The notes under the pieces: generated by a model
Told to the model about the DNA's origin: nothing
What the model saw: only the letters and a program-made list of their open reading frames with translations
Database searches by the model: none
Virus record (IMG/VR): IMGVR_UViG_3300042549_009448
Coordinates: 116,031-180,030 of that record
From: a virus
Reading direction: 5' to 3' (one strand)
DNA length: 64,000 bases
Part shown: piece after piece, positions 11,739 through 33,662 of the stretch
Layout of the letters: each line of letters starts with the position of its first letter
Position numbering within the stretch: position 1 is the stretch's first letter
Program-made: the position numbers and the translations under genes

Positions 11739-13484
11739 TTACCTATATTCAACTCTTAGTCTTTCTCTAAAATTTGATCCAGTTAACGCAGTTGGGTCTC
11801 TTAATACATCAGCTAGACACCCATCTAAGAAATATGTTATAGCCCAATCATTTGGGGTTCGGATTGACCTACCAATTCCTTGAGCAATACTAACTTCGGT
11901 CTTCCAGTTGTACCATTTTTGGCTGTACTCCAACTTCGCAGCAACATACTTATCACCAAGGTGAGGATACGGCACCTTTAAGAATATTTGGAATCGACTC
12001 TGATCGTCGACCATGTTCAGACCCTCAAGAATTGACGGTCCCATCAGGACCATACCCTTCTTTTTAATCATTTTCTTTAGTGCAAGTTCCTTTTCACCAG
12101 AGCCTTTATAGAGCAGAATGCGTTTCTTGACATCCTTGGGAAGGCCATCGAAAATCTTAGTATTCAATTCATAAGAACCGGAATGGATGATACCTGAGTC
12201 CTCAGAGTGCTCACGAATGATTCGGGTAACCGTGTCTATTGCCCACTGTAAATTTTCAGTCAAGAATCTGGCTGACATTTTCTTACCTGGATAAAAAATG
12301 ATCGGTGAACGCTCCCAATTGAAGTTGCTTTCAATCTTGAAGTACTGTGCCTTTTTGATTCCGTGATTTCTCATGAAGTCTCCAGCTCCTCCCATTGTTG
12401 CAGTCATCAGTAATTTAAACCCGAATTTCGTAAAGAAGTGTTTTTGTAGTAAGTAGTACTCATCAATACAGTTAAATGTGATTGATTTCTCTCCAGGATT
12501 CTTTACAAGCTTTTCAAGGCCTACCTTGTCAATAATTTCACAGTAGTCTTCTAGTTTACAGTGAACGTCCTTCACCCAATCCGCAAGATTAAAAACGGCA
12601 AGCCATTCCATTGGAAGGCTTTCATCAACGAACTCCTCTGCCGCGTTTTCTCTGATTTGTGAGGTTGACTTTACCAAGTCGGCTAGCAGCCTGGTCACTT
12701 CTCTAAGCAGTTTAAGTAGAGTTGAATGATCTTCGTGCTCGTAAATTAAATTGATTGCCTTTTCCAATCGCTTGAAGTCAACAGATGGCGGCCTTTGTCC
12801 AATATCTCCCAAACCTTCAACTAATTTTTGAGTTTTACCGACTATTTCAGTTGAAACGATTGGGCTGAAATGGCTCTGTACAATATCTAGGAGTTTGTGA
12901 GCCTCATCGCATATCACGAAATCTCTTTGTGGAAATGGTGAGCCTCTACCTGTTCTCTGTTGCTGTTGCTCAACGTAATTTCTCTGAATCAGAGCATAGG
13001 GATAGGTTAACAGCGTAACTGGTGATTTGATTGACTTTTTACGTGAAGTTAAGTAACCACAATGCTTAAAACAAGGCAAAGATTCCGCTGCTTCATAGGT
13101 TGTACCCTTGTTTTTACATTCACCGACCGAGAATTTTTCTCCGTTTACTGAGCATGTGTAATTATCAACGCCCTTGATGTTGCCCCAATTCCAGAGCTGC
13201 ATTTTACGAAAATCTTTCACGTACTGTTCGTGTAGAGAAAGGTCAGAGGCTAAAATATAGCCTCGATTGCCTCTTTCTGTTAAAACACCCGCAAATATCA
13301 TAGCTATGATACTTTTGCCTCCACCTGTTGGGCAATCTAGTAAAAATACTGAATTTGGGTCTTCATCGTATGATTTTAGCATTTCACAAATTGCTTCAAA
13401 CTGTTGAGGTCTAAACTTAAAAGTTTGAGGATATTTAAACTTCACATATCTTTGTACTTCATCTATATAATTATGTTTTTCCAT
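11739..13484 (-). CDS. XPD/DinG-type iron-sulphur SF2 DNA helicase
   Basis: 581 residues. Walker A CPTGGGKS near residue 50, DEAH box VICDEAHKLLD near 193, and C-terminal motif V/VI (QGIGRSIRTPND). Between motifs Ia and II lie four spaced cysteines (NYTCSV, GECKNK, LPCFKHC) in the position of the 4Fe-4S domain of XPD/DinG 5'-3' helicases. A role in phage replication, recombination or repair is likely. The sequence directly upstream contains a homing-endonuclease remnant. Confidence 0.88.
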   Translation of the reverse strand: MEKHNYIDEVQRYVKFKYPQTFKFRPQQFEAICEMLKSYDEDPNSVFLLDCPTGGGKSIIAMIFAGVLTERGNRGYILASDLSLHEQYVKDFRKMQLWNWGNIKGVDNYTCSVNGEKFSVGECKNKGTTYEAAESLPCFKHCGYLTSRKKSIKSPVTLLTYPYALIQRNYVEQQQQRTGRGSPFPQRDFVICDEAHKLLDIVQSHFSPIVSTEIVGKTQKLVEGLGDIGQRPPSVDFKRLEKAINLIYEHEDHSTLLKLLREVTRLLADLVKSTSQIRENAAEEFVDESLPMEWLAVFNLADWVKDVHCKLEDYCEIIDKVGLEKLVKNPGEKSITFNCIDEYYLLQKHFFTKFGFKLLMTATMGGAGDFMRNHGIKKAQYFKIESNFNWERSPIIFYPGKKMSARFLTENLQWAIDTVTRIIREHSEDSGIIHSGSYELNTKIFDGLPKDVKKRILLYKGSGEKELALKKMIKKKGMVLMGPSILEGLNMVDDQSRFQIFLKVPYPHLGDKYVAAKLEYSQKWYNWKTEVSIAQGIGRSIRTPNDWAITYFLDGCLADVLRDPTALTGSNFRERLRVEYR

Positions 13485-15225: not shown

Positions 15226-16038
15226 TTAAATTGGAAGTTTTACCCTACTTAAAAGACTATTTGAGACGTGTGTGTAAATTTCTGTTGTTTTAGAGCTGGA
15301 ATGACCTGCTATTTTTTGGATAATTCTTAAATCAGTTCCTGATTCTAATAGGTTAGTGAAAGAGGAATGTCTTAGTGTATGTATGGATGACCCGTCATCA
15401 ATGTATTTTTTATAAATTTGCTGACAGCTTCGTATTGAATACAATGAAGAATTTTGCCCATTAAAAAGATAATCTGAAGGTTTATACTCTTTAAAATATT
15501 CTCTTAGCAAAGTTAAAACAGTTAATGACAGCGGAACTATCCTATCCTTTCGACCCTTTGCATTTTTAATGTGAATTATCATTCGTTTGGAATCAATGTC
15601 CTCGATTTTTAAGTTTACGATTTCAGACACCCTTAGGCCAACCGAGTAGGTTAGAGTTAGTATAGCTCTGTGCTTAATGTTTTGTATTTTAGCAAGTTTG
15701 CTCTTAATAAACTCACCATCAATTACCCTAGGCAGTTTCTTTTCGGCCTTGGGTCTTTTAAACGATACCTTATCGTATTTCTTATCAAGTCCGTACTTAT
15801 ACAGAAATCTAATAGCGTTAATAACCTGGTTTTGTTGAGAAACTGAAGTGAATTTATGATTATCCAGGTAAGATTGGAAATCTTTTGAATTTAGGTGTGC
15901 TGCTGATTTAGTCTGTGAGGTAATGAATCTACTTATATGGCTTAAATAGGTCTCCTTGGTTCGAGCTGAGTAGTTTAAGTAATTAAGTTTTTGTTCACAA
16001 ATTTTTAAAGTTGGTAATCCCTTTTTGTTCATTATCAA
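15226..16038 (-). CDS. Tyrosine recombinase of the integron-like array (Xer-like)
   Basis: 270 residues. N-terminal SAM-like core-binding domain (about 10-95), then the catalytic domain with Arg in SVGLRVSEI, beta-hairpin Lys in AKGRKDRIVPL, HxxR in HTLRHSS, His in AGHSSSKT and the nucleophile in IYTHV. It ends in the SRVKLPI tail typical of Bacteroidota Xer-type recombinases. It lacks the roughly 20-residue insertion that defines IntI integrases, so it is not a canonical integron integrase. It is transcribed away from a 20-cassette array that begins 31 bases beyond its start, the usual integrase/attI/array geometry. Confidence 0.9.
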   Translation of the reverse strand: MIMNKKGLPTLKICEQKLNYLNYSARTKETYLSHISRFITSQTKSAAHLNSKDFQSYLDNHKFTSVSQQNQVINAIRFLYKYGLDKKYDKVSFKRPKAEKKLPRVIDGEFIKSKLAKIQNIKHRAILTLTYSVGLRVSEIVNLKIEDIDSKRMIIHIKNAKGRKDRIVPLSLTVLTLLREYFKEYKPSDYLFNGQNSSLYSIRSCQQIYKKYIDDGSSIHTLRHSSFTNLLESGTDLRIIQKIAGHSSSKTTEIYTHVSNSLLSRVKLPI

Positions 16039-16097
16039 TGGTTTAAGAGTACTTGTTTATATATGATAGTTATGGCACATTAAAACGATGCCATAAC
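16039..16097. promoter_or_regulatory. Candidate attI-like primary recombination site
   Basis: Sequence between the recombinase start and the first attC-like stem. It contains the first core GTTATGGCA (16069) and a 9-bp hairpin GTTATGGCA/TGCCATAAC enclosing the loop CATTAAAACGA, which also caps three attC-like sites. The left side has no AAC half-site, so this is the array boundary. It could be attI or a minimal, decayed cassette. Confidence 0.45.
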
Positions 16098-16286
16098 ACC
16101 AAATAAGCGCAATTTTTAGTCCACCCAGCAAGGCTCGAACTTGCTTACTCTTATTAAACTCGCATAAGCTGTTCCAATTTTTATTGGTCTTATGAGGCGG
16201 TTTAATCGTCATTGTGTTTTACCACGTTAAACTACAGGTGAATATCAATTTAGTTAAACTGCGCTTATTTGGATAACGTTATATGA
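16089..16286. repeat. attC-like site 1 (large loop with tRNA-like insert)
   Basis: AAC at 16095 and GTT at 16278. The stem is CCAAATAAGCGC/GCGCTTATTTGG. The loop of about 155 bases contains a tRNA-like sequence. The cassette carrying this site has no protein gene. Confidence 0.75.
16121..16242 (-). tRNA. tRNA-like element inside attC-like site 1
   Basis: Minus strand: acceptor TCACCTG/TGGGTGG pairs fully with wobbles, D-arm GTTT...AAAC with GTGGTA in the loop, and T-arm GCAAG/CTTGC around TTCGAGC. A normal anticodon arm is not visible. Instead there is an extended hairpin (ATTAAAC/GTTTAAT enclosing CTCATAAG/CTTATGCGAG). At about 120 bases it is too long for a standard tRNA. It could be a tRNA mimic, a tRNA with an insertion, or a decayed gene. 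Confidence 0.5.
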
Positions 16287-16290
16287 AATG

Positions 16291-16665
16291 TTATTTTTGT
16301 TTTGGTATTAATTCATAATCAACTCCATCAATCATAATTTCCTTAACAAAATCTTTATCACTATATTTTTCCAAATGTGATGTGAAGAAACTAACTTTAT
16401 TACCAGATGTTAGACTTTCTAAATTAACATTTAGGTAATTATCAACTCTTATCCCATCAATTAAATACGGATCAATTGATAATACTTTGAATTTGGTTTC
16501 TCCACATTCTTTTCTAATACTCTTTCCTTTATACCAAACAATATCATCAACATTAAAGTCAATTTTGTGTTTTTCTAAAACACACTTAACAAATTCTTCA
16601 TCTGTTAAAACTTTCTTAGGTGTTAACTCATATTCAACACCATCAATAATAATTTTCTTTTCCAT
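16291..16665 (-). CDS. Cassette 2 protein with two IDGVxYEL motifs
   Basis: 124 residues. The motif IDGVEYELTP occurs at residues 6-15 and again near the end (IDGVDYELIP). The lectin-like protein at 3371-3742 begins with a related TLDGVDYNLTP. The central part is alpha/beta with a possible small barrel (FNVDDIVWYKGKS). Function unknown. The stop lies 11 bases after core GTT 16278, so the cassette is filled by this gene. Confidence 0.78.
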   Translation of the reverse strand: MEKKIIIDGVEYELTPKKVLTDEEFVKCVLEKHKIDFNVDDIVWYKGKSIRKECGETKFKVLSIDPYLIDGIRVDNYLNVNLESLTSGNKVSFFTSHLEKYSDKDFVKEIMIDGVDYELIPKQK

Positions 16666-16703
16666 AAATTTATTTTTTTAATCGGTAAAACAAAAATAAC
16701 ACA

Positions 16704-16762
16704 TTCATATAACAGATGATAAACAACATTAAAACGATTGTTTATCATCAGACGTTAGCACC
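16704..16762. repeat. attC-like site 2 (short, conserved loop)
   Basis: AAC 16711, GTT 16754. Stem GATGATAAACAA/TTGTTTATCATC capped by CATTAAAACGA, the 11-base loop also found at 22511, 23088 and 16079. Left box TTCATATAAC complements the core GTTATATGAA at 16278. Confidence 0.85.
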
Positions 16763-16783
16763 AATACTACGGAAGTGCTTTGA

Positions 16784-17200
16784 TTAAGCATTTAATGGTT
16801 CATCAAAGATTACATTCCAACTATCTAATGGTTGCCAACCACCCCCCATAGTCATTACTTCCAAATCTGATGATGGTACATGCTTAAACGTAATATATTC
16901 ATCCCCTTTATTGTTCACTATTCTTGGTGATAGTTGATAATCATCAGTCAATTTTGTTCTTAAAATACACATTTTACTAATTCCACCCTTTGATTTTGCA
17001 TAGTATTTAGCATAGTCTAAATCATTTGTGAAACTAATTGATGGTTGCTCTTCACCAGTTCTATTTGGTTTCATATATCCATCGTTCTGTATATTCATTG
17101 CTTGTCCTTTACCAGTTCCGTGATAAATATAACCATCATTTTTTACTTGTTCATTTAAGTATTCTTTGATGGTGGTTTTTATAAATTTTCTCAATTCCAT
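16784..17200 (-). CDS. Cassette 3: ADP-ribosyltransferase-like protein
   Basis: 138 residues. The N-terminus LRKFIKTTIKEYLNEQ is a basic amphipathic helix like those on phage virion-internal proteins. YIYHGTGKG, then SISFTNDLDYAKYYAKSKG and a later EYITFKHVPSSDLEVM, follow the order His-Gly, Tyr/Ser, Glu of the H-Y-E ADP-ribosyltransferase fold. Assignment rests on these short motifs only. If right, this would be a mobile, possibly virion-delivered host-modifying enzyme. Confidence 0.6.
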   Translation of the reverse strand: MELRKFIKTTIKEYLNEQVKNDGYIYHGTGKGQAMNIQNDGYMKPNRTGEEQPSISFTNDLDYAKYYAKSKGGISKMCILRTKLTDDYQLSPRIVNNKGDEYITFKHVPSSDLEVMTMGGGWQPLDSWNVIFDEPLNA

Positions 17201-17260
17201 TTGCCTTTTATTTTATATATAAATATTCAAATTTTAAAATTCTGCTAAATAAACCGTACT

Positions 17261-17358
17261 GGTGCTAACAGCGTATATAAGAAATGGCACATAAACATTT
17301 GTGCTAAAATTCAACATTCTACAAGTGCCACTTCTCATATACGCAAACCGTTAGCAGT
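17261..17358. repeat. attC-like site 3
   Basis: AAC 17267, GTT 17350. Stem GCGTATATAAGAA/CTTCTCATATACGC with an inner TGGCAC/GTGCCA stem. Left box GGTGCTAAC is the exact complement of GTTAGCACC at 16754. One base separates AAC from the stem; five separate the stem from GTT. Confidence 0.88.
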
Positions 17359-17369
17359 AATAAAAATTA

Positions 17370-17570
17370 CTACTCTTCGTATTTAAGAAAATCTTCCGTT
17401 CCATCTAAGTATTTTGAATAACACTCTTTTAAGTCTTTTTTACTGTAATGTGATAAATCTGATGGTGCGAATCCAATTTCTACTTTTTCATAAATTGATG
17501 TCCAAGTATCGTGTGTTAACTTTTCAAAATACTTATTTTCCCACTCTTTGTAATTTAATTTGTTTTCCAT
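17370..17570 (-). CDS. Cassette 4 hypothetical protein
   Basis: 66 residues, charged and helical (NYKEWENKYFEKLTHD, SKKDLKECYSKYLDG). No family recognised. It fills the cassette between cores 17350 and 17679. Confidence 0.7.
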   Translation of the reverse strand: MENKLNYKEWENKYFEKLTHDTWTSIYEKVEIGFAPSDLSHYSKKDLKECYSKYLDGTEDFLKYEE

Positions 17571-17587
17571 ATCCGTAATTTTTACAT

Positions 17588-17687
17588 ACTGCTAACAGCG
17601 TATATACAAGATACACCTACAAGCATTTGTTTATAATTTAAAATTTTCGTTAAGGCGTACCTCGTATATACGCAAAACGTTACCAAC
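17588..17687. repeat. attC-like site 4
   Basis: AAC 17594, GTT 17679. Stem GCGTATATAC/GTATATACGC. Left box ACTGCTAAC complements GTTAGCAGT at 17350. Confidence 0.85.
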
Positions 17688-17696
17688 AATACTACG

Positions 17697-17948
17697 TTAG
17701 TACTTATATAAACGTTTTTTGTAATCTTCAAATGCTGACCAAATTGTGTCGCCAATACCATACAAGCAAGGTGATACATGTTCTTCTAACCAGTCATTAA
17801 TGATATAATAAACTTCTTCATCACCTTGTACAGAATCAACAAATCCCGCATCATTATCAGCGTTGAAGATTACAATTTTTCCACCATAACGCATTTTCAC
17901 TATGGTCAAAGGATATATATCCTCAATGTTTTCGATTTTCTTTTCCAT
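17697..17948 (-). CDS. Cassette 5 hypothetical protein
   Basis: 83 residues. EDIYPLTIVKMRYGGKIVIFN suggests a small beta structure, followed by an acidic stretch and a helical Arg/Lys end. No family recognised. Confidence 0.7.
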   Translation of the reverse strand: MEKKIENIEDIYPLTIVKMRYGGKIVIFNADNDAGFVDSVQGDEEVYYIINDWLEEHVSPCLYGIGDTIWSAFEDYKKRLYKY

Positions 17949-17980
17949 TTTATTTAAGTTTTATATTAATAATCCGTACT

Positions 17981-18078
17981 GTTGGTAACAAGGTGTATAA
18001 GAAAGTTTGCTATCAATAGTTGTGGTAATTTGAAAGTTCATCTAAGCAAACCTTCTCATACACCCAACCGTTATGTGT
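17981..18078. repeat. attC-like site 5
   Basis: AAC 17987, GTT 18070. Stem GGTGTATAAGAAAG/CTTCTCATACACC with an inner GTTTGC/GCAAAC pair. Left box GTTGGTAAC is the exact complement of GTTACCAAC at 17679. Confidence 0.85.
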
Positions 18079-18083
18079 AATGG

Positions 18084-18332
18084 TTAAAGAGACACGCTCC
18101 TTAAATCAAACTTCTTTATAATTTTCACTCCATTATCATCAATTTCATAATCTACAATTGTTCCAGATACTTTCATCTGTTCAAAGTCATTTATGTTTAT
18201 CGCATCTTTATTGATGATAATTTCGTTAGTGTCTACTTCATTAAATCTAATTGTATAACCACTACACATAACATCAGATATACCCAATTTGGGGTTCTCT
18301 GCGTTATTCAAGTTTTGTTCTTCTTTTTTCAT
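18084..18332 (-). CDS. Cassette 6 protein whose start lies in the attC-like hairpin
   Basis: 82 residues. Residues 1-21 (MKKEEQNLNNAENPKLGISD and V) are encoded by the loop and left arm of attC-like site 6. The GTT codon for Val21 is the recombination core, and the frame continues into the cassette body (MCSGYTIRF). The body contains FEQMKVSGTIVDYEIDDNG. No family. The shared ISDV junction also occurs in the proteins at 18743-19054 and 19903-20241. Confidence 0.72.
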   Translation of the reverse strand: MKKEEQNLNNAENPKLGISDVMCSGYTIRFNEVDTNEIIINKDAININDFEQMKVSGTIVDYEIDDNGVKIIKKFDLRSVSL

Positions 18333-18397
18333 TTTATCTTAATTTAAAGTTTCTAGTATTTAATCCCAAACTAGGTATATCTGCAACCGTTATAGGG
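18263..18397. repeat. attC-like site 6 (encodes an N-terminus)
   Basis: AAC 18270 lies inside the gene; GTT at 18389. Stem ATCAGATATACC/GGTATATCTG with an inner CCCAA pairing and a loop containing an ATG. Left box TACACATAAC complements GTTATGTGTA at 18070. Confidence 0.82.
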
Positions 18398-18401
18398 CAT
18401 T

Positions 18402-18581
18402 TTACACCCCACCATCACGTTGACCTGTTACTACTATTGAAGTGTATGCAGGTTCACGAGCATCACCAGCGTAATGTGATACGTTAATTGTTGTCCTGTT
18501 GATGTCAAGGTTGTATTTTTCAGCAACCATTTTCTTGATGTCATCTTCTGTAAGTTCGATTTTAATGTACTCTTTTGCCAT
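18402..18581 (-). CDS. Cassette 7 hypothetical protein
   Basis: 59 residues from MAKEYIKIELTEDDIKKMVA. A longer frame to 18671 would run through the attC-like stem and gives an unlikely N-terminus, so it is rejected. Alpha/beta, ending in a Gly-Gly-Val tail. No family. Confidence 0.7.
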   Translation of the reverse strand: MAKEYIKIELTEDDIKKMVAEKYNLDINRTTINVSHYAGDAREPAYTSIVVTGQRDGGV

Positions 18582-18600
18582 TTTGATTTGAATTAAAAAC

Positions 18601-18736
18601 GCCCTATAACATACGCTATACAAAAGCAGGGGCTTTACTGCTAATTGAAGCGGTGTGCATCTATTTATCATTTGTGCAAGGCTGAAAGGGAGTGCATCTT
18701 AACCCCTGCCTTCGTATAGCGTCAGCCGTTAGAAGT
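18601..18736. repeat. attC-like site 7
   Basis: AAC 18608, GTT 18728. Stem TACGCTATA/TATAGCGT with an inner GCAGGGG/CCCCTGC stem. Left box GCCCTATAAC complements GTTATAGGGC at 18389. Confidence 0.87.
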
Positions 18737-18742
18737 AATAAA

Positions 18743-19054
18743 TTAAACATTACCCAAAAACCACCTCTTAGAAAGTTCCCTACATATAATATCATACGAC
18801 TCAAACATCATAGTAGATTTACTTTCACCTAATCCACTAAAGTATATTTCGTATATTTCGTCTTGTATAGTCCTATCAAATAATCTTTTACCTGTTTTTT
18901 GGTAATGTAAATTATCTTCAATAGATTTTCTTATATCATCAATTGAAAGTTGTTCCATAAAATAATGTATGTTTAATTTACTACTTCTAACATCAGATAT
19001 ATTCAAGTTTTCTTCTGACTCATTAAATCTCCTTATGTGTGTTAAATCTTTCAT
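18743..19054 (-). CDS. Cassette 8 protein with capsid-targeting-like leader encoded by attC
   Basis: 103 residues. The first 22 (MKDLTHIRRFNESEENLNIS plus DV) are nearly identical to the protein at 19903-20241. They resemble a T4-type capsid-targeting leader with a possible cut after FNE. They are encoded entirely within attC-like site 8, and the Val codon is the GTT core. The body (RSSKLNIHYFMEQLSIDDIR) is unrelated to that of the sister gene. Function unknown. Confidence 0.75.
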   Translation of the reverse strand: MKDLTHIRRFNESEENLNISDVRSSKLNIHYFMEQLSIDDIRKSIEDNLHYQKTGKRLFDRTIQDEIYEIYFSGLGESKSTMMFESYDIICRELSKRWFLGNV

Positions 19055-19121
19055 CTTCTTATGTTATTTTAGTGTATATATTAAAAAGAAAACCTAAATA
19101 TATCTGAGTATCGTTAGGCGT
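18982..19121. repeat. attC-like site 8 (encodes start and leader)
   Basis: AAC 18989, GTT 19113. Stem ATCAGATATATT/AAATATATCTGA. The loop of about 90 bases contains the ATG and leader of the gene at 18743-19054. Left box ACTTCTAAC complements GTTAGAAGT at 18728. Confidence 0.83.
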
Positions 19122-19129
19122 AATAAATT

Positions 19130-19279
19130 TTACTGCCATTCGTCAAAGTTTTTATAATAGTTCTCCGCATCTTTCTTTGTCCATTTTATTTTGGTTGCTG
19201 CATCAATGTCCTTTTTAATTTGTCTGTCATCTGCTATCATAAACAGTATAACTATTCCAAAAAATATTAGTAGTCCCAT
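19130..19279 (-). CDS. Cassette 9 small membrane protein
   Basis: 49 residues. It starts MGLLIFFGIVILFMIADD (one membrane segment), then a charged helix ending KNFDEWQ. It fills the cassette between cores 19113 and 19422. It is short but has a clean start, a stop and normal composition. Confidence 0.65.
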   Translation of the reverse strand: MGLLIFFGIVILFMIADDRQIKKDIDAATKIKWTKKDAENYYKNFDEWQ

Positions 19280-19295
19280 AATCGTAAAATTTACA

Positions 19296-19430
19296 TACGC
19301 CTAACATTGCATAACCAAAAGCGGGGCGTATATCCGTCATTCAGCTATTGTACTACCAATTTACTTTGTGCCGTTGGTTAGGGTGGTTGCACTTAATCCC
19401 CGCCTTCGGTTATACCTGTCCGTTATAACC
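19296..19430. repeat. attC-like site 9
   Basis: AAC 19303, GTT 19422. Stem ATAACC/GGTTAT plus GCGGGG/CCCCGC. Left box ACGCCTAAC complements GTTAGGCGT at 19113. Confidence 0.85.
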
Positions 19431-19434
19431 AATG

Positions 19435-19719
19435 CTACGAGAACCCAAGTCCTGACAACAATTGCTCTTCAAAACTTTGTGGCTTGTAAGTTAATTTATC
19501 AATGTATTCAATAGCTAACTGTTTATGTTTTTCAACATATTCCTCAATTTGGAAAGTTTCTATTTCATCTTTTTGGTAGTAATTGTTGCCACCCATACAA
19601 TTAGTTATAATTGTGTGCCACCTTTTACCATTTAGTCTTTTTTCGACTTTGGTGTTTAACTCAACTGATGTGTTGAATTTGTAATATTTGTAATCAAATT
19701 CTCTGTTTAATTTTGACAT
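19435..19719 (-). CDS. Cassette 10 hypothetical protein
   Basis: 94 residues, basic N-terminal half (NREFDYKYYKFNTSVELNT, GKRWHTIITN) and helical C-terminal half. No family recognised. Confidence 0.7.
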   Translation of the reverse strand: MSKLNREFDYKYYKFNTSVELNTKVEKRLNGKRWHTIITNCMGGNNYYQKDEIETFQIEEYVEKHKQLAIEYIDKLTYKPQSFEEQLLSGLGFS

Positions 19720-19757
19720 TGTGTTTATTTTTTAAGTTTATAATTCGTAAAAAGCAC

Positions 19758-19894
19758 TGGTTATAACACACGTTTGGCAAAAAAGCGGTTTTAGTGCTAA
19801 ATTGAACATTCGTGCTTCCTATTGGCTTTTTTACTAAACTGAAAGTATGTGCTTTCAATTCCGCTTCTTCGCCAAGCGTGGAAACGTTAGTAGT
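19758..19894. repeat. attC-like site 10
   Basis: AAC 19765, GTT 19886. Stem CACGTTTGGC/GCCAAGCGTG with an inner AAGCGG/CCGCTT pair. Left box TGGTTATAAC complements GTTATAACCA at 19422. Confidence 0.87.
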
Positions 19895-19902
19895 AATAAA
19901 AA

Positions 19903-20241
19903 TCAACTACCCAACTCTGGTAGATGAATACATTTTACTATGTTATATTTTCCAATTTTAGTGTAGTCTTCTAATACATAAGTTTGACACATCAAATGTT
20001 CTAATGTGTTGTTATAGATTATATTCAACATATTTTCAACTTGTTTCTGTGTATTAAGTCCATCATTTATCATTTTATCAATCTGTGGATATAATGAATA
20101 ATCTATAACAGTAAAATGTATTTCATCACCACTTTCATGATGAACCACAAGTAAATGCTGATTTTTACTACTACTAACATCAGATATATTCAAGTTTTCT
20201 TCTGACTCGTTAAATCTTTTTATGTGTTTTAAATCTTTCAT
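19903..20241 (-). CDS. Cassette 11 protein with capsid-targeting-like leader encoded by attC
   Basis: 112 residues. N-terminal MKDLKHIKRFNESEENLNIS plus DV is encoded inside attC-like site 11. The body (SSSKNQHLLVVHHESGDEIH) is unrelated to the cassette 8 body despite the near-identical leader. The Val22 codon is the GTT core. Function unknown. Confidence 0.75.
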   Translation of the reverse strand: MKDLKHIKRFNESEENLNISDVSSSKNQHLLVVHHESGDEIHFTVIDYSLYPQIDKMINDGLNTQKQVENMLNIIYNNTLEHLMCQTYVLEDYTKIGKYNIVKCIHLPELGS

Positions 20242-20308
20242 CTTCGTTTACTATTTTTAAGTATATATTAAAAAGAAAACCAGAAATATATCTGTGTCCG
20301 TTATAAAC
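20169..20308. repeat. attC-like site 11 (encodes start and leader)
   Basis: AAC 20176, GTT 20300. Stem ATCAGATATATT/AAATATATCTG, the same as site 8. Left box TACTACTAAC complements GTTAGTAGTA at 19886. Confidence 0.83.
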
Positions 20309-20319
20309 AATAAAAAACC

Positions 20320-20718
20320 TTAAAGTGGTGGTTCTAAATTGTCTTTTATCTTATCATAAGATTCTTTAATCGCTTCGGATAATACTTGTTCGATAGGTTT
20401 TTTACTATTTATAACAACGGATATATGAAATAAAAAATTAATAGATTCTACAAACTTTATAATTTCTTCCTCTGTTTTACATTCTCGTTGAACAACACAA
20501 AATTCACCCCTAACTACTTTACAAGTTTGGGTTTCTATGTTGTAATAAAATATTGGCAATTTACAAGGGTTTCCGCATATCTCAGTATCTTCTTCACCTA
20601 AAACCCAAACGTGTTTCCCAGTGAATACATCAAGTATCTCACTAAAACCTAATTCTGTTAAATTTTGTGTTGTTATCATCGTTCTAATTATTAATTTTTT
20701 ACATTCATATATCCGCAA
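20320..20718 (-). CDS. Cassette 12 protein largely within an attC-like loop
   Basis: Up to 132 residues; an internal start at MITTQNLTELGFSEILDVF (14 residues in) is more likely. The N-terminal part is distantly like the ELGFDEPC family at 3739-5173. About two thirds of the gene lies in the 260-base loop of attC-like site 12, and the C-terminal end lies in the cassette body. Function unknown. Confidence 0.7.
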   Translation of the reverse strand: MRIYECKKLIIRTMITTQNLTELGFSEILDVFTGKHVWVLGEEDTEICGNPCKLPIFYYNIETQTCKVVRGEFCVVQRECKTEEEIIKFVESINFLFHISVVINSKKPIEQVLSEAIKESYDKIKDNLEPPL

Positions 20719-20729
20719 ACGTTATGCCT
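20406..20729. repeat. attC-like site 12 (gene-sized loop)
   Basis: AAC 20413, GTT 20721. Stem CGGATATATGAA/TTCATATATCCG, with AAAAAA/TTTTTT extending it further in. Left box TTTATAAC complements GTTATAAA at 20300. The unusually long loop carries coding sequence. Confidence 0.75.
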
Positions 20730-20970
20730 CATTCTGTGGGAACTCGACACCGAACTTTAATTCGACAATATGTTTCATACAATTTTGCTTAATTATTTGT
20801 TGCTGATGAACATACTCTTTAAATTGTTCACATATTGCTTCTAATTGAGCAACCGAATGATTCCCTTTACCTTCAAAAAAAGGTTGTTGGACTATAATTC
20901 CTTTGTAGTGAATTGGTGTGTACATCTCGTCTGACATATACACTAAATGTTCTGTTTTTAATTCTGACAT
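20722..20970 (-). CDS. Cassette 13 hypothetical protein
   Basis: 82 residues. LVYMSDEMYTPIHYKGIIV suggests beta strands, followed by a helix rich in Gln and Cys (FKEYVHQQQIIKQNCMKH). The stop overlaps the GTT core. No family. Confidence 0.7.
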   Translation of the reverse strand: MSELKTEHLVYMSDEMYTPIHYKGIIVQQPFFEGKGNHSVAQLEAICEQFKEYVHQQQIIKQNCMKHIVELKFGVEFPQNEA

Positions 20971-21015
20971 AATTTTATTTTTTGTTTGTTAATAATTGAT
21001 TTGTGAAAAAGAACG

Positions 21016-21152
21016 AAGGCATAACAGCACATAAGCAAAAGCAAAGGTTCTGTGGTAAATTGATATTCTCGTTTTCATATTATATTCTGTTTTAAAATTA
21101 AAGTTTTCGTTTCTAAATCTTTGCCTTCGCTTATCTGCGATACGTTATAAAC
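21016..21152. repeat. attC-like site 13
   Basis: AAC 21023, GTT 21144. Stem ATAAGCAAAAGCAAAG/CTTTGCCTTCGCTTAT. Left box GAAGGCATAAC complements GTTATGCCTC at 20721. Confidence 0.85.
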
Positions 21153-21157
21153 AATAA

Positions 21158-21367
21158 TTAATTCGGTGTTTCAAACATATCTTCTGGAAAACCGCAACCA
21201 GATAAGTCGTGATTTTTTGGAAAATATAATTTCTTTCCTTCATTATTGTAAGTTTGTAATCCACTTTCTGGTGTATCTGTAAAAATAAAACTATCGTCTA
21301 TTTTCCAAAATGAACCACCTTCGTGTGTTGCGGTTATTACTGTTCCTTGTTTAAGTTTTTTTTCCAT
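21158..21367 (-). CDS. Cassette 14 hypothetical protein
   Basis: 69 residues with a likely small beta-barrel (LKQGTVITATHEGGSFWKI). No family recognised. Confidence 0.68.
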   Translation of the reverse strand: MEKKLKQGTVITATHEGGSFWKIDDSFIFTDTPESGLQTYNNEGKKLYFPKNHDLSGCGFPEDMFETPN

Positions 21368-21376
21368 ATTAATTAC

Positions 21377-21474
21377 TGTTTATAACAAAGTATATGTGAA
21401 ATACCTCATAAAGTTTCTACTAAATTATTAATTTCTGTGGTAAGGTACTTCACATATACCTAACTGTTATAAAA
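21377..21474. repeat. attC-like site 14
   Basis: AAC 21384, GTT 21466. Stem GTATATGTGAA/TTCACATATAC with an inner TACCT/AGGTA pair. Left box TGTTTATAAC complements GTTATAAACA at 21144. Confidence 0.86.
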
Positions 21475-21676
21475 CATTTGTATAATCTGTCAAAAATTTA
21501 TCCATAGATATAGCATAAGTTTTAAAAACCAATCCATTTTGATTTTTGAATACAGACAACATTCCTGTTGAACTTCTTTTGTTACCCACAAATTCAATAA
21601 CATCCCCTTGTTTCAGTAAATTATCTTTACCGTAATACTTATCAATTTTCATGATAAATTTTTGTCCTTTTTTCAT
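21467..21676 (-). CDS. Cassette 15 hypothetical beta-barrel protein
   Basis: 69 residues: MKKGQKFIMKIDKYYGKDN then GDVIEFVGNKRS, an SH3/KOW-like pattern. The stop overlaps the GTT core. No family. Confidence 0.68.
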   Translation of the reverse strand: MKKGQKFIMKIDKYYGKDNLLKQGDVIEFVGNKRSSTGMLSVFKNQNGLVFKTYAISMDKFLTDYTNVL

Positions 21677-21684
21677 ATCTAACC

Positions 21685-21781
21685 GTTTTATAACAACAAA
21701 TATACCACATTTTTATCAAAAAAAAAAATTAATTTGAAACTTTCTACAAAAAAACGTTGTATATTTGCAGTCGTTATCGGC
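21685..21781. repeat. attC-like site 15
   Basis: AAC 21692, GTT 21773. Stem ACAAATATAC/GTATATTTG. Left box GTTTTATAAC complements GTTATAAAAC at 21466. Confidence 0.82.
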
Positions 21782-21785
21782 AACC

Positions 21786-22175
21786 CTAAGCAGATACCGT
21801 TTCGTGAATGTTACCGACAACAACCAATCTTTCACAATCTATGTATTGAGTTAATCCCGTTTGTAACTTGCAAACAAACCTTGCTTTTTCATCATTGAAA
21901 ATTACTTCAAATGGATAGTTCCAAGCATCGTGCTGAACTAAATCACCCTCATAAATTTCCTTGCCATTCTTATCTTTCAATCCAGTAAATTGCATAAGGT
22001 CAATACAATTTTCATCAGCATTCATCCATCCAATAGTTACAAAATCACCACTATCAACCCAAATGCTATTGCAAGTGTAATTGGGGTCTGCGAGGTCAGT
22101 ATTGCCAACTTGCACTTTGTAATTCATTAGGCTGTATGTTTTATCCCAAGCCCTAAATTTAATTTGTCTGTTCAT
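21786..22175 (-). CDS. Cassette 16: YopX-family protein
   Basis: 129 residues. IKFRAWDK at the N-terminus, LMQFTGLKDKNGKEIYEGDLV in the middle and WNYPFEVIFNDEKARF form the YopX (DUF1897-like) pattern of phage accessory proteins. Biochemical role is unknown for the family. It is the only cassette protein assigned confidently to a family. Confidence 0.85.
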   Translation of the reverse strand: MNRQIKFRAWDKTYSLMNYKVQVGNTDLADPNYTCNSIWVDSGDFVTIGWMNADENCIDLMQFTGLKDKNGKEIYEGDLVQHDAWNYPFEVIFNDEKARFVCKLQTGLTQYIDCERLVVVGNIHETVSA

Positions 22176-22214
22176 TTTGTGTCTGTTTTTAATTTAATAA
22201 TTCATTGAAAGGGC

Positions 22215-22299
22215 ATCCGATAACAGCGTATAAAAGAAAGCTACCCAACGCTAAAGGCTCTGCTTCGTAGCTTTCTTTTATACGCAAAACGTTATAAAT
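22215..22299. repeat. attC-like site 16
   Basis: AAC 22222, GTT 22291. Stem GCGTATAAAAGAAAGCTAC/GTAGCTTTCTTTTATACGC is perfectly paired over 19 bp. Left box CCGATAAC complements GTTATCGG at 21773. Confidence 0.9.
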
Positions 22300-22312
22300 A
22301 ATAAAACTAAAA

Positions 22313-22465
22313 TTATGAATTGTTTAATTCGTTCAGTCTTATTTTCGATGTTTCATAAGTATTCCACCTTTCATAAAATGATTCAAATAATCCAAACCAT
22401 CTTACATATATCATGTGATAAACTTCACCACACATCAATTCTTGTTTAATAAAGTATTTTTTCAT
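22313..22465 (-). CDS. Cassette 17 small protein
   Basis: 50 residues from MKKYFIKQELMCGEVYHMIY. A frame extended to 22513 would include the attC arm, so it is rejected. Aromatic-rich (YVRWFGLFESFYERW). No family. Confidence 0.65.
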   Translation of the reverse strand: MKKYFIKQELMCGEVYHMIYVRWFGLFESFYERWNTYETSKIRLNELNNS

Positions 22466-22487
22466 ATTGTATAATTTTAGTTTTACA

Positions 22488-22546
22488 TATTTATAACAAA
22501 GTGTAAAAAACATTAAAACGATTTTTTACACTCAACCGTTATGTGC
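22488..22546. repeat. attC-like site 17 (short, conserved loop)
   Basis: AAC 22495, GTT 22538. Stem GTGTAAAAAA/TTTTTTACAC capped by CATTAAAACGA. Left box ATTTATAAC complements GTTATAAAT at 22291. Confidence 0.87.
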
Positions 22547-22757
22547 CATTATAGACACGAAACCAACTTCGCTTTTTATTAGCCATAAATTTAGTTCCAC
22601 ACTTTACACATTCAAATTGCCCTACCTCTCTTCCATCAACTCTATCAATGAATTTACACTCTTCAATAGTTCTTATGTAATGGAATAAACGGCACATAAC
22701 ACCACCTAACCAAAAGCGGTGGTTTCGTGCTTTTTTGATAGTTAATTGCTCATTCAT
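22539..22757 (-). CDS. Cassette 18 zinc-finger-like protein whose start lies in the attC hairpin
   Basis: 72 residues. The first 20 (MNEQLTIKKARNHRFWLGGV) are encoded by the right-hand attC-like site 18, and the Val codon is the core. The body has CRLFHYIRTIEECKF and a CVKCG knuckle, so a zinc-binding fold is likely. A start inside the body is also possible (MCRLFHY), because GTT is followed directly by ATG. Confidence 0.68.
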   Translation of the reverse strand: MNEQLTIKKARNHRFWLGGVMCRLFHYIRTIEECKFIDRVDGREVGQFECVKCGTKFMANKKRSWFRVYNGT

Positions 22758-22825
22758 ATTATATTCTTTTAAGTTAATTTATCTATTAAATCACCGCCTT
22801 CGGTTAGCTGCAAACCGTTATAAGT
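22691..22825. repeat. attC-like site 18
   Basis: AAC 22698, GTT 22817. Stem CTAACC/GGTTAG plus GCGGTG/CACCGC. Left box GGCACATAAC is the exact complement of GTTATGTGCC at 22538. It resembles site 9 in its inner stem. Confidence 0.87.
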
Positions 22826-22838
22826 AATAAAACAAAAA

Positions 22839-23027
22839 TTATGAGTTTATTCTGTTCTCAAGTTTTTGAATTATTTTTTCAATATCTGATAACCAATTAT
22901 CAATGTCTCTACCTTCTGTTTCTTCAAATAAATGTGCAGATGCCATTTTTAAATGGTCTATCGCTGCATGTTCTGCTGTTGCATAATTAACACTTTCTTC
23001 TTCTACTCTACTTAATAATGTTTTCAT
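22839..23027 (-). CDS. Cassette 19 helical protein
   Basis: 62 residues, nearly all helical (SVNYATAEHAAIDHLKMASA, IEKIIQKLENRIN). No family recognised. Confidence 0.7.
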   Translation of the reverse strand: MKTLLSRVEEESVNYATAEHAAIDHLKMASAHLFEETEGRDIDNWLSDIEKIIQKLENRINS

Positions 23028-23065
23028 AATTTATTTCTTTTAATTTGTATAATTTTTGTTTTACA

Positions 23066-23124
23066 TACTTATAACAACAAATAAAACACATTAAAACGAT
23101 GTTTTATTTGTAATCGTTATAAAA
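23066..23124. repeat. attC-like site 19 (short, conserved loop)
   Basis: AAC 23073, GTT 23116. Stem ACAAATAAAACA/TGTTTTATTTGT capped by CATTAAAACGA. Left box TACTTATAAC complements GTTATAAGTA at 22817. Confidence 0.87.
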
Positions 23125-23126
23125 CA

Positions 23127-23327
23127 TTATAAACGACCACCCCACTCAAATTTTATTTCATCAACATTATAGTCAATTTCATAATCTTGCTTCAATATCT
23201 CAACTGCTTTCAGTTTTGCTTCATTTTCATTTGAAACAATACCACCTAATCTAATATTCTTTCCGTTTATTGTCATACTGTGATTAGTTCCAGCAAAACT
23301 TCCGTTCCAATAAAATTTGATTTCCAT
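23127..23327 (-). CDS. Cassette 20 hypothetical protein
   Basis: 66 residues, alpha/beta: MEIKFYWNGSFAGTNHSM, then NEAKLKAVEILKQDYE and DEIKFEWGG. It has the look of a small double-stranded-RNA-binding-like or ubiquitin-like fold, which I cannot confirm. Confidence 0.68.
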   Translation of the reverse strand: MEIKFYWNGSFAGTNHSMTINGKNIRLGGIVSNENEAKLKAVEILKQDYEIDYNVDEIKFEWGGRL

Positions 23328-23336
23328 ATAAATAAC

Positions 23337-23372
23337 GTTTTATAACAAAGTGTATAAGTAATGTGGCTAAAT
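23337..23372. repeat. Truncated attC-like half-site at array end
   Basis: Left box GTTTTATAAC complements GTTATAAAAC at 23116, and the left arm (AAAGTGTATAAGTAATGTGGC) resembles other sites. No right arm or GTT follows before the next gene stop at 23398. The array ends here, probably by deletion. Confidence 0.65.
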
Positions 23373-23397
23373 AAGTTTATTTGTCTGTGAGACCTAA

Positions 23398-23805
23398 TTA
23401 GACGGTGTGCGGCCACTGAACTCTTATACAATCTTGAGGTAATCTATTGATATGGCGGTAATTATTAATGTAGCCCATCATATTTGCTGATCCGATTGCA
23501 TTAGCTGAATGTATAACAACCTTAACTACCGATGCTCCGTCTAACCATTGTTCAACCATCCACTTAGTACAGTCCATACCAGTCTTCTCGGTAATATTAT
23601 CGTAATTCAATTCGTAGTTATGGTAAACGTTTTTATGCCATTCCCTCATTGCGCTATCTCCTAAATCGTGATCCAGCGAAATTAGTTCAATATTCTCTAA
23701 TCCAAGTTCAGTTATTTTCTCAACAAACTCCTCGTAGCTTCTAACTACGATCCAGCTCTTATCGATTGGGGTCCTAATGTCGTCTAAGTATATTTTATGC
23801 TTCAT
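23398..23805 (-). CDS. Cyclic-phosphate-processing receiver-like (cpREC) protein
   Basis: 135 residues: YLDDIRTP at the N-terminus and ISLDHDLG near residue 42, the Asp-rich core of the receiver-like domain linked to 2',3'-cyclic phosphate processing, with VVIHSANAIG as a later strand. The gene overlaps the RNA ligase start by 11 bases. The pairing suggests a role in preparing RNA ends for ligation. Confidence 0.8.
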   Translation of the reverse strand: MKHKIYLDDIRTPIDKSWIVVRSYEEFVEKITELGLENIELISLDHDLGDSAMREWHKNVYHNYELNYDNITEKTGMDCTKWMVEQWLDGASVVKVVIHSANAIGSANMMGYINNYRHINRLPQDCIRVQWPHTV

Positions 23806-24868
23806 TCAGTAAAAATTTATTTGAAATTACCTTGAACGAAATTTTTCGATCAAGACTTCTGATGACAACGCCCTCCCTATCAAAATTTGGATTAAGACTT
23901 GATTTTGAATCAGCGTACTCGAGTAATTGATCTATTGTATCAGGCAGAGCGAATTTGGTTTCAACTATTGGAACAATTGGTAAACCAAATCCCAAGACTA
24001 GTTTAGTAAACTCTTCAAATCCCAAGTATTCTTGAGTGTCGATATTAAAAGCATTAAAGAACTTCACAGTCTGTCCTCTTAATTTATAAGGGTTCTTTTG
24101 AATTCCCTCGCCTACCAATTCTCCTTGAATGCAAATATTATAGCCAACTGACTCTAATTTAGGCTTAATCTCCATTTCTCTAGCGACTTTCCAAAACGTA
24201 TTTTCATCAGTCTCCAGCAGTTCCAAATTACGTGAACACGCTCCAAACTCTCCGTCCTTCAGGTAGAAAGTTGCGGACGAACCGTCCAATTTCTCAGTTA
24301 CGTAAAAAGCCTGATCTTTCCAACTTTCATAATGGTCGGTTAAGTTTTGTACACGGTCCTCATCAGTCTTATGAATGAATGATGGGAACATACCTTTAAC
24401 CTTACCTGCCAATTCTGCTGGAATGGGAGGCTCGTATTTAAGCACGCACATGTACTCAGTAACGTCAGTGCCTTCTTCGATAACTATTGCATCATCATAG
24501 GGTCCAAGCTGAAGCTGATCCCCCCAAGGCTGTTTGCTGATTCCAATCTTCATTTCATCGTCCTTTTCCAGGACACTTAATGGTAAACACAGCCCTTGCG
24601 AAACCTGCCCTCTAAGCCTAATGGTTTTTAATCTGAATCCCTCTAAGTCTCCCATCTTTTTATATGAAGACTTTCTTAGGAATTCAAAGTCCTTCTCCAT
24701 CGGTAGAAACGAATCTATTTCAAAATAAACGCAGAGGTCGCCCTCTGTGAATTCACCTTTTTTTGCAACTACGTTCCAGCTATTGATCTGAACTACTTCG
24801 ATTGCATCCGCTCCCTCAATCGGTTTGATTGCGCGGACTCTTTGAATGCTTGCTAATTTTCTTTCCAT
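23795..24868 (-). CDS. RNA ligase (Rnl5/DRB0094-like)
   Basis: 357 residues. An N-terminal OB-like domain (about 1-110: RKLASIQRVRAIKPIEGADA) precedes the nucleotidyltransferase domain with catalytic Lys in TEKLDGSSATFY (about 195), then ELVGEGIQ (motif IIIa region), and REGVVIRS (motif IV) and ISFKVIS (motif V). This order matches the DRB0094/Rnl5 family. Probably repairs nicked host or phage tRNA during infection. Confidence 0.85.
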   Translation of the reverse strand: MERKLASIQRVRAIKPIEGADAIEVVQINSWNVVAKKGEFTEGDLCVYFEIDSFLPMEKDFEFLRKSSYKKMGDLEGFRLKTIRLRGQVSQGLCLPLSVLEKDDEMKIGISKQPWGDQLQLGPYDDAIVIEEGTDVTEYMCVLKYEPPIPAELAGKVKGMFPSFIHKTDEDRVQNLTDHYESWKDQAFYVTEKLDGSSATFYLKDGEFGACSRNLELLETDENTFWKVAREMEIKPKLESVGYNICIQGELVGEGIQKNPYKLRGQTVKFFNAFNIDTQEYLGFEEFTKLVLGFGLPIVPIVETKFALPDTIDQLLEYADSKSSLNPNFDREGVVIRSLDRKISFKVISNKFLLNEA

Positions 24869-32585: not shown

Positions 32586-33662
32586 TTAACGGTTCCAGAA
32601 AGGTTTTTGATAATCAGGGCGAATCATTCGCCAAACTGTTTGACTGTAGTCTTTGCCCTGTAACATTGAGAACACCAGACCTTGGTACACCTTTGGGCAA
32701 TTTGCTTGAATCCACAAGGCATCCTCCTTCTTGGTATTAATATCTTGGCTTAATAACTCGGCAAAAATCTTTTTAGCCTCAAGTTCCTTCATGACGAACG
32801 CGAACGTAAGAGCCCTGATCCAGCCCCTGACCCATGAATCAAATTCGTCTGGCACGCTCTCAATGTACTCGCTTAGGTCATCTCCATTTCTCAAGCATTC
32901 CCAAATATCGATATTTGAAAAATTGGTCAACAGTCGGTGTAATCTGACATACTCATCGAACTTGATCTTAACTCTGTAATTTGATGGATGGAATCGTAGG
33001 ACGAAACCTTCCTTATCCGATTCGTTAAGGTTCTTGTATCGTTTAAAAATATTCTCAGTAATAGTATCCATCACCGTCCACACAATATCCTCTTCACGGA
33101 TCCCAGATGAGTGAAATAGTGCTTTAGCCGTTCCCCAATTTACTTCACGGCCTTCCATGACAGCAGATAAGAAGGTAATCTTTTCTTCAGAGTAGTCAAC
33201 TACAATTCGGTTCTCAGGATAGATAATCTCGCAAATGTAACAAACAGTTGAATGAAACTTTCCAAGATCGTACTTCTTTTTTAGAATCTCCAGACCGGCT
33301 TTTGCTTGCTCAGATTCAAATGATCCGCGAGTTGCCATGTGCCACTCACCATTGTAATGAAATAGGATTCCTAAAGAGCCGTCCATTTTCTCCTGCACGT
33401 AAACGTATTTATCATTCACTGGAATCTGGCCAGTGTTCTCAACCTCTTCGTAATTAAAGAATTTATTGAAACCTCTAGCGACCAACCGGTTCTCATGATC
33501 AAGGATTAGCCCTCGACATTGTAGAGTCACCTGATCCCAACTCTTTTCAAACTGGCACTCTCTTGAGTAATTATAAATGGTGAGTGGAAGCGTTGGATGA
33601 TCCTTTGCTTCCACTAATCCTTTATCGATATAAGGCTGTATGATTTCTCTAGTTAAGATCAT
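32586..33662 (-). CDS. T4 Rnl1-like RNA ligase
   Basis: 358 residues. Adenylation Lys in VQEKMDGSLGILF (about 96), ATRGSF, CEIIYPENRIVV (motif III region), EGFVLRF (motif IV) and RVKIKF (motif V). The C-terminal helical domain is Rnl1-like. This is a second, unrelated RNA ligase in the window. It lies two genes from a polynucleotide-kinase-like protein, the same pairing as the T4 tRNA-repair system. Confidence 0.87.
   Translation of the reverse strand: MILTREIIQPYIDKGLVEAKDHPTLPLTIYNYSRECQFEKSWDQVTLQCRGLILDHENRLVARGFNKFFNYEEVENTGQIPVNDKYVYVQEKMDGSLGILFHYNGEWHMATRGSFESEQAKAGLEILKKKYDLGKFHSTVCYICEIIYPENRIVVDYSEEKITFLSAVMEGREVNWGTAKALFHSSGIREEDIVWTVMDTITENIFKRYKNLNESDKEGFVLRFHPSNYRVKIKFDEYVRLHRLLTNFSNIDIWECLRNGDDLSEYIESVPDEFDSWVRGWIRALTFAFVMKELEAKKIFAELLSQDINTKKEDALWIQANCPKVYQGLVFSMLQGKDYSQTVWRMIRPDYQKPFWNR

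Follow-up and report, generated by a model that had tools for sequence, protein, structure and literature searches.

Integrons are best known from the class 1 elements and the chromosomal integrons of Vibrio, in which a tyrosine recombinase, IntI, lies by an insertion site, attI, and an array of small-gene cassettes whose attC sites are self-complementary at their R'' and R' ends; cassettes are inserted at attI at G|TT, and the bottom strand of attC folds best. An additional domain of IntI is held to be both defining and necessary (PMC9668308). Complete integrons are rated very rare in the Bacteroidetes by the IntegronFinder 2 survey, in which the only one from the Bacteroidetes proper is that of Salinibacter ruber (PMC9024848). 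Integrons and clusters of attC sites without an integrase of their own (CALINs) were reported from phages in 2023 (Qi et al. 2023, PMC9892861). An “integron-like” subgroup of simple tyrosine recombinases, whose conservation of the IntI insertion is incomplete, was pointed out in 2021 in passages of Smyshlyaev et al. (PMC8138268) that call the insertion essential for integron function and report no cassette arrays for insert-less members. Here we analyse a window of 64,000 nucleotides (nt), bases 116031–180030 of the 180,030-base virus record IMGVR_UViG_3300042549_009448, in which an array of 20 small cassettes (16069–23439, in window positions as throughout) adjoins an insert-less tyrosine recombinase (15226–16038).

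We consider it very probable that this locus is a phage-borne, integron-like cassette platform, run by the adjoining recombinase via an attI and attC-like hairpins. To judge from its sequence, it works like an integron and yet departs from the IntI-based family in defining features. Comparison with related loci shows an integron-like architecture, a precise insertion point, natural gain and loss of single cassettes, and exchange from phage to phage. A T4-type portal gene (PF07230, E 3e-70) and a gene for the gp23 capsid protein (PF07068, E 3e-42) in the same record identify it as a T4-like phage, in agreement with an earlier reading of the letters alone (the sequence-only reading), which had assigned the array to a large phage.

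Structure of the array and its sites

The array coincides with a minus-strand block of small genes at 16.1–23.4 kb and contains 19 complete attC-like sites, followed by a degenerate one at its end, so that both the count and the coordinates proposed in the sequence-only reading were borne out (by a site scan, the terminal site being read directly). The outer AAC/GTT pair described there recurs in all 19 complete hairpin sites (16095–23118), which have the form TAAC, short spacer, stem, loop, stem, 5-nt spacer, GTTA and range from 46 to 311 nt. An attI, which the earlier reading had not seen, was found at about 16053–16071; the array therefore begins on the integrase side, and its genes point back toward attI.

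The bases following GTT are complementary to those preceding AAC of the same cassette. This self-match, also part of the earlier description, extends over 7 nt in 15 of the 18 window cassettes that lie between complete sites and over 6, 5 and 5 nt in the remaining three. It is kept when more genomes are considered. In a set of 81 phage loci, consisting of the window and 80 IMG/VR relatives retrieved by their integrase, 197 distinct cassettes show Watson-Crick pairing at 99 to 74% over the 7 positions after GTT. Position 8 is a fixed G-T wobble (5% Watson-Crick, 78% wobble on the bottom strand), beyond which there are 4 further pairs at the cassette ends; the attC stem has about 12 pairs, then wobble at 13–14.

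A detector with fixed asymmetric spacers called 350 sites in the 81 loci, all in one orientation, and none when the geometry was mirrored or the sequence shuffled. An integrase-blind scan found at least 118 stretches of viral contigs that match a 48-base pattern for the minimal 46-nt form. The architecture, tandem cassettes of one small gene each with a folding, R''/R' self-complementary site, is that of integrons. The spacer geometry is not: canonical attC sites have R-L spacers of similar length on both arms (7–8 and 7–8 nt in class 1 control sites under the same code, none of the two being called phage-type), whereas those of the phage sites measure 1–2 and 5 nt. A symmetric-spacer scan found no arrays beside canonical IntI genes in three metagenome-assembled genomes (MAGs), so the canonical control consists of the two class 1 sites only.

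Folded as single-stranded DNA, six window sites proved well below dinucleotide shuffles (minus strand, z −2.1 to −5.7), folding being a check proposed in the sequence-only reading. The minus strand of the window, which is the bottom strand relative to attI, is the better-folding one, and one of the six (site 4) folds on that strand only. Of 231 distinct phage sites, 194 fold more stably as the bottom strand and 29 as the top strand.

An 11-nt loop, CATTAAAACGA, occurs in the window at 16078–16088, 16725–16735, 22509–22519 and 23087–23097, and at 73 distinct places in the phage loci, always on one strand and never (0) on the other. The stems that it closes are perfect but unrelated, and belong both to minimal attCs of 46 nt and to gene-less cassettes of 29 nt; the recurrence of the loop may possibly reflect cassette genesis, or the shortest loop that keeps the conserved wobble motif. 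Empty cassettes of the kind that opens the window array are also present in L014, L022 and L028.

Insertion point and gene polarity

Close phage relatives possess a conserved TATATATAATAG|TTA 30–100 nt 5' of the integrase start, beyond which their sequences diverge. This motif was found by pattern in 57 of 67 phage loci, is visible by eye in most others, and homology between phages ends at its G|TT. Four loci are particularly instructive (L026, L029, L030 and L031), as their integrase genes are identical and their sequences remain so through the G of attI. Past this G, L026 and L030, which have a common first cassette, are about 50% identical to L029 and to L031, as the latter two are to each other. 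L029 differs from L031 by exactly one extra cassette at attI (integrase coding identity 1.0), the sequence following attI in L031 being that which follows the attC of the first cassette in L029. These breakpoints, and the difference by a single cassette, place insertion at G|TT beside the integrase, as in integrons, with the attC of the incoming cassette attI-distal as judged from these natural variants. Insertion at an attI that adjoins the integrase fixes the orientation of the array. Of the 53 loci that reach at least 2 kb 5' of the integrase, 47 have two or more sites there.

Gene polarity departs from that of canonical integrons, where cassette genes are read from attI toward their own attC. 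The longest open frame in 235 phage cassettes is on the minus strand in 227, on the plus strand in 1 and undecided in 7. Where cassettes recur with different neighbours, it is the attC on the 5' side of the gene that travels with it (4 cases versus 0); several genes start within this 5'-side site (18332, 19054 and 20241). An attC at the 3' end of the gene, as in classical cassettes, was rejected for the phages on the evidence of polarity (227:1) and co-travel.

The recombinase

The recombinase, P0001, is the only tyrosine recombinase of the 180-kb record, in which no IntI was found, and its catalytic residues (R136, K161, H220, R223, H246 and Y255) are invariant in 18 aligned members of its clade. 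XerA is its best-scoring NCBIfam model (176 bits, cut-off 220); the IntI model (TIGR02249) gives 151 bits, well short of the curated cut-off of 265. Its best PDB matches are XerA-type proteins, then IntI4, which has an extra block missing from P0001. The span from KGxxDR to HxLRH measures 53 residues (52–54) in the phage clade, mostly 58–59 in bacterial relatives and 99–101 in six IntI proteins. By span length and by structural alignment to IntI4, P0001 therefore has no IntI-specific additional domain near patch III, just as the sequence-only reading had stated.

Although the XerC, XerD and XerA proteins have a fold in common with P0001, a tree of 81 proteins separates them. Xer acts on dif, not on hairpin cassette sites. 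The tree was midpoint-rooted and built from columns filled in at least 30% of rows; with this filter its topology is not driven by the IntI insertion, which occurs in 6 of the 81 rows. The tree sets Xer apart from a group made up of IntI and an insert-less family (support 100/93); this family (97/98) is sister to IntI, and within it the phage clade and four MAG sequences form a 100/100 group. Under a midpoint root, P0001 thus falls beside IntI rather than with XerC/D/A. The position of the insert-less family recalls the integron-like subgroup as outlined in passages of PMC8138268. A search of 50,697 phage records gave no close relative of the integrase clade (best match 39.5%), and a near-identity DNA search gave no close DNA relatives of the locus in cultured phages.

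Cassette exchange and cargo

A 315-bp unit of the window (19113–19426) is 100% identical in L065, although the integrases of the two loci are only 60% identical. Identity stops at G|TT on both ends, and the sequences outside are unrelated. L056 and L049 likewise have a cassette in common (98% identical). The oversized 311-nt site with a gene coded through it (20413–20723) is 95% identical in L046 (array orientation 12290–12615); the cassette body before it differs between the two, apparently through replacement at the R'' side.

The cargo is open-ended, since 159 phage cassette proteins of at least 75 amino acids fall into 154 clusters. Related phages that carry the same genes in the same order, named in the sequence-only reading as evidence against an integron, were thus not seen, and identical integrases adjoin different first cassettes. 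Pfam recognised few of 70 larger cassette proteins, among them DNA methyltransferases, an RNA ligase, a 3'-5' exoribonuclease, a PARP-like domain and acetyltransferases; the PADLOC families among the matches listed are all methyltransferases. Searched against PHROGs and Pfam, the window cassettes yielded a single annotated gene, of the YopX family. The median phage cassette body is only 284 nt, shorter than is usual in canonical integrons.

Bacterial counterparts and other phage records

Relatives with about 40–54% integrase identity were found in bacterial and archaeal genomes, and the same asymmetric sites lie beside them in 17 of the 40 loci that extend at least 2 kb downstream of the integrase. 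The array-bearing taxa are Bacteroidota, Nitrospirota, Bacillota, Neomarinimicrobiota and Altarchaeota (many of them MAGs, several isolates). Examples are the chromosomal arrays of Flavobacterium terrisoli (L216:11499–18028) and Arundinibacter roseus (L259:12690–17225), with others in Pelobium, in Nitrospirae MAGs and in an Altarchaeum MAG (loci include L276, L255 and L205). The insert-less class is therefore not confined to phages.

Chromosomal and phage arrays agree in spacer geometry and in the wobble (6% Watson-Crick and 72% wobble at position 8 in bacteria), and the bacterial sites have a milder bias to the same folding strand (37 to 23). Of the 231 phage sites, 49 align to bacterial sites in the same orientation, with up to 79% identity over 114 nt, and shuffled sites do not align. 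These alignments and the common wobble indicate that phage and bacterial sites are homologous and that the cassette genes, not the sites, have been turned round. The chromosomal arrays differ from those of the phages in having attI 3' of the integrase (where a candidate was found, it mostly lies about 84–140 nt from the integrase end), classical gene polarity (45:0) and longer cassettes (median 717 nt).

Arrays of the same grammar, without an intact adjoining integrase of the phage clade, were encountered in two huge-phage records, LR756500.1 (462 kb; 8 sites, L303:14729–18308; an integrase fragment lies elsewhere) and LR745206.1 (635 kb; 4 sites, L304:13814–15621; no integrase match), and as a two-site array in the cultured Flavobacterium phage 6H (KC959568, L305:3828–4338).

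Proposed mechanism and alternative explanations

We favour a process in which P0001, as the responsible enzyme, would bind double-stranded attI together with an attC-like site whose bottom strand is folded into a single-stranded hairpin. Strand exchange at G|TT would then insert cassettes singly next to the integrase, and excision and reshuffling would be possible as well. Phage replication or co-infection, when folded bottom strands are exposed as substrate, would be the likely occasion, and the cassettes may constitute a common pool of accessory genes traded by co-infecting phages. Because the genes are inverted, cassettes would be transcribed toward the integrase, either together with phage genes of the flank or from promoters close to their own attC, and not outward from an attI promoter; new cassettes would be added next to the integrase, at the 3' end of the transcription unit.

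Several points weigh against this interpretation. The IntI insertion has been held necessary (Messier and Roy 2001, MacDonald 2006, as cited in passages of PMC9668308 and PMC8138268), which speaks against activity of an enzyme that does not make up for its absence. The record itself is a metagenomic assembly. Fewer than 2 sites were detected in 6 of the 53 phage loci with adequate flank, and the asymmetric-spacer detector sees no array beside 23 of the 40 bacterial relatives whose downstream flank reaches 2 kb or more. Homologous recombination inside attC stretches that loci have in common could account for some of the differences between them.

Since CALINs are on record from phages, with IntI1 able to recombine some of them (PMC9892861), one might take the array for a canonical attC cluster served by a host IntI, with an unrelated phage integrase lying next to it. 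The array of LR756500.1, with its integrase fragment, and that of LR745206.1, for which no integrase match was found, would suit such a view. We nevertheless think it very unlikely, as the array lies directly 5' of this integrase clade, with attI between them, in 47 of 53 loci, unlike the elements of Qi et al. (PMC9892861), which resemble it in carrying attC-like sites and cassettes on phage genomes but have canonical attC or IntI and mostly no adjacent integrase. The spacers are also unlike those of the class 1 controls, a site scan of Polaribacter phage P12002L from the same study gave none of these sites, and 10 of 13 genomes bearing bacterial relatives have no match above the canonical IntI cut-off. 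It is just as improbable, in our opinion, that the array is a dead, formerly mobile integron, whose variation is old and whose integrase acts elsewhere, for example in genome dimer resolution. The terminal site is indeed degenerate and one cassette is empty; however, cassettes that are 100% identical in divergent phages, and single-cassette differences at an identical integrase, speak for recent events, and the catalytic residues have remained invariant across the 18 aligned members.

Least probable of all is an explanation by which the palindromes are intergenic terminators or mRNA-stabilising hairpins and the gene variation is ordinary mosaicism, produced by homologous or illegitimate recombination. 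The hairpins do occur between co-directional genes, the best-folding strand in phages is the coding strand, as an RNA function would also give, and attC sites are thought to be weak terminators (PMC9892861). Such an explanation leaves the end-to-end complementarity of each gene unit unaccounted for, as well as the conserved attI by the integrase, the identity edges exactly at G|TT and the fixed orientation of sites relative to the integrase. Moreover, bacterial arrays, whose genes lie on the other strand, share the wobble and favour the same folding strand, if less strongly.

The proposal of the sequence-only reading, that a large phage carries a new or little-known class of integron, is thus upheld for the cassette platform described here: neither of the two observations regarded there as contradicting it, constancy of genes and gene order or loss of the complementarity across genomes, was made. 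In open-access PMC papers, preprints and subscription journals being outside the search, we came across no account of cassette arrays with insert-less integrases, nor of cassette genes in inverted polarity. Since the presence of the IntI domain serves to define integrons, this class would escape integrase searches for which the domain is a prerequisite (IntegronFinder, PMC9024848, PMC9668308). With dozens of other phages carrying the system and many bacteria a related form, integrons may be broader and older than the textbook view. We find it rather likely that the insert-less recombinases sister to IntI represent a second, possibly ancestral, functional integron class, present in phages and in chromosomes of Bacteroidota, Nitrospirota, Bacillota and some archaea, that the IntI domain is a later refinement and not a requirement, and that phages run a separate cassette economy with inverted genes, from phage to phage. 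If the integrases are active, integrons would be more widespread and the additional domain dispensable, and the transition from Xer to IntI could be tested with living intermediates. Large phages would then own a site-specific, one-at-a-time trade of accessory genes, DNA methyltransferases included, a route of phage genome evolution beyond homologous mosaicism.

Coordinates and further features of the locus

Table 1. Recombinase, attI and cassette array in window coordinates (aa, amino acids)
Feature	Position	Strand	Remarks
Insert-less integron-type tyrosine recombinase P0001	15226–16038	−	likely ATG start 16032; PF00589 E 3e-34, PF13495 E 4e-11
attI-like insertion site TTTATATATGATAG|TTA	16053–16071	+	probable crossover between 16069 and 16070
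Gene-less cassette 1, GTTATGGCA-CATTAAAACGA-TGCCATAAC	16069–16097	+	29 nt, 9-bp arms
attC-like site 1, 186 nt	16095–16280	+	site scan
Cassette 2 gene, 124 aa	16291–16665	−	no Pfam/PHROG match
attC-like site 2, 46 nt minimal form	16711–16756	+	site scan, DNA fold
Cassette 3 gene, 138 aa, unknown	16784–17200	−	list of open reading frames, annotation scan
attC-like site 3	17267–17352	+	minus-strand DNA fold z −5.6
Cassette 4 gene, 66 aa	17370–17570	−	
attC-like site 4	17594–17681	+	fold: minus strand z −5.2, plus strand only z −1.0
Cassette 5 gene, 83 aa	17697–17948	−	
attC-like site 5	17987–18072	+	site scan
Cassette 6 gene, 82 aa	18084–18332	−	start codon within attC site 6
attC-like site 6	18270–18391	+	site scan
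Cassette 7 gene, about 59 aa	18402–18581	−	
attC-like site 7	18608–18730	+	site scan
Cassette 8 gene, 103 aa	18743–19054	−	start within attC site 8
attC-like site 8	18989–19115	+	site scan
Cassette 9 including attC	19113–19426	+	gene 19130–19279, minus strand; site 9, 19303–19424
Cassette 10 gene, 94 aa	19435–19719	−	
attC-like site 10	19765–19888	+	79% identity over 114 nt to chromosomal site of Arundinibacter roseus (L259)
Cassette 11 gene, 112 aa	19903–20241	−	start within attC site 11
attC-like site 11	20176–20302	+	site scan
Cassette 12 gene, about 119 aa	20320–20679	−	coding mostly through oversized attC
attC-like site 12, 311 nt	20413–20723	+	95% identical in L046
Cassette 13 gene, 82 aa	20722–20970	−	
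attC-like site 13	21023–21146	+	site scan
Cassette 14 gene, 69 aa	21158–21367	−	
attC-like site 14	21384–21468	+	site scan
Cassette 15 gene, 69 aa	21467–21676	−	
attC-like site 15	21692–21775	+	site scan
Cassette 16 gene, 129 aa, YopX family	21786–22175	−	PF09643, E 4e-18
attC-like site 16	22222–22293	+	site scan, DNA fold
Cassette 17 gene, about 50 aa	22313–22465	−	
attC-like site 17, 46 nt minimal form	22495–22540	+	site scan
Cassette 18 open reading frame, 72 aa as listed	22539–22757	−	start overlapping site 18
attC-like site 18	22698–22819	+	site scan
Cassette 19 gene, 62 aa	22839–23027	−	
attC-like site 19, 46 nt minimal form	23073–23118	+	site scan
Cassette 20 gene, 66 aa	23127–23327	−	
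Terminal degenerate attC	23344–23439	+	R'' and left arm intact, R' GTT lost; right arm overlaps 3' end of phage gene 23398–23805

The loop of attC site 1 contains a tRNA-like sequence, with T-arm- and D-arm-like stretches (16113–16250, minus strand). A tRNA at this site was rejected, as ARAGORN made a call nearby only when the threshold was lowered, and assigned no amino acid to it. Rfam matched the array with nothing other than chance microRNA and snoRNA models.

The array is bordered by a cREC_REC domain protein (23398–23805), and two RNA ligases are encoded beside or near it (23795–24868 and 32586–33662). Farther along the window, an open reading frame resembling the A subunit of topoisomerase II (47202–48443) has a match to an intein C-terminal splicing region (TIGR01443) near its start and a second open reading frame (48424–49383) alongside, so that an intein or a split gene is possible at 47202–49383. 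A gene for a SulP-type anion transporter (TIGR00815) is located at 49942–51084.

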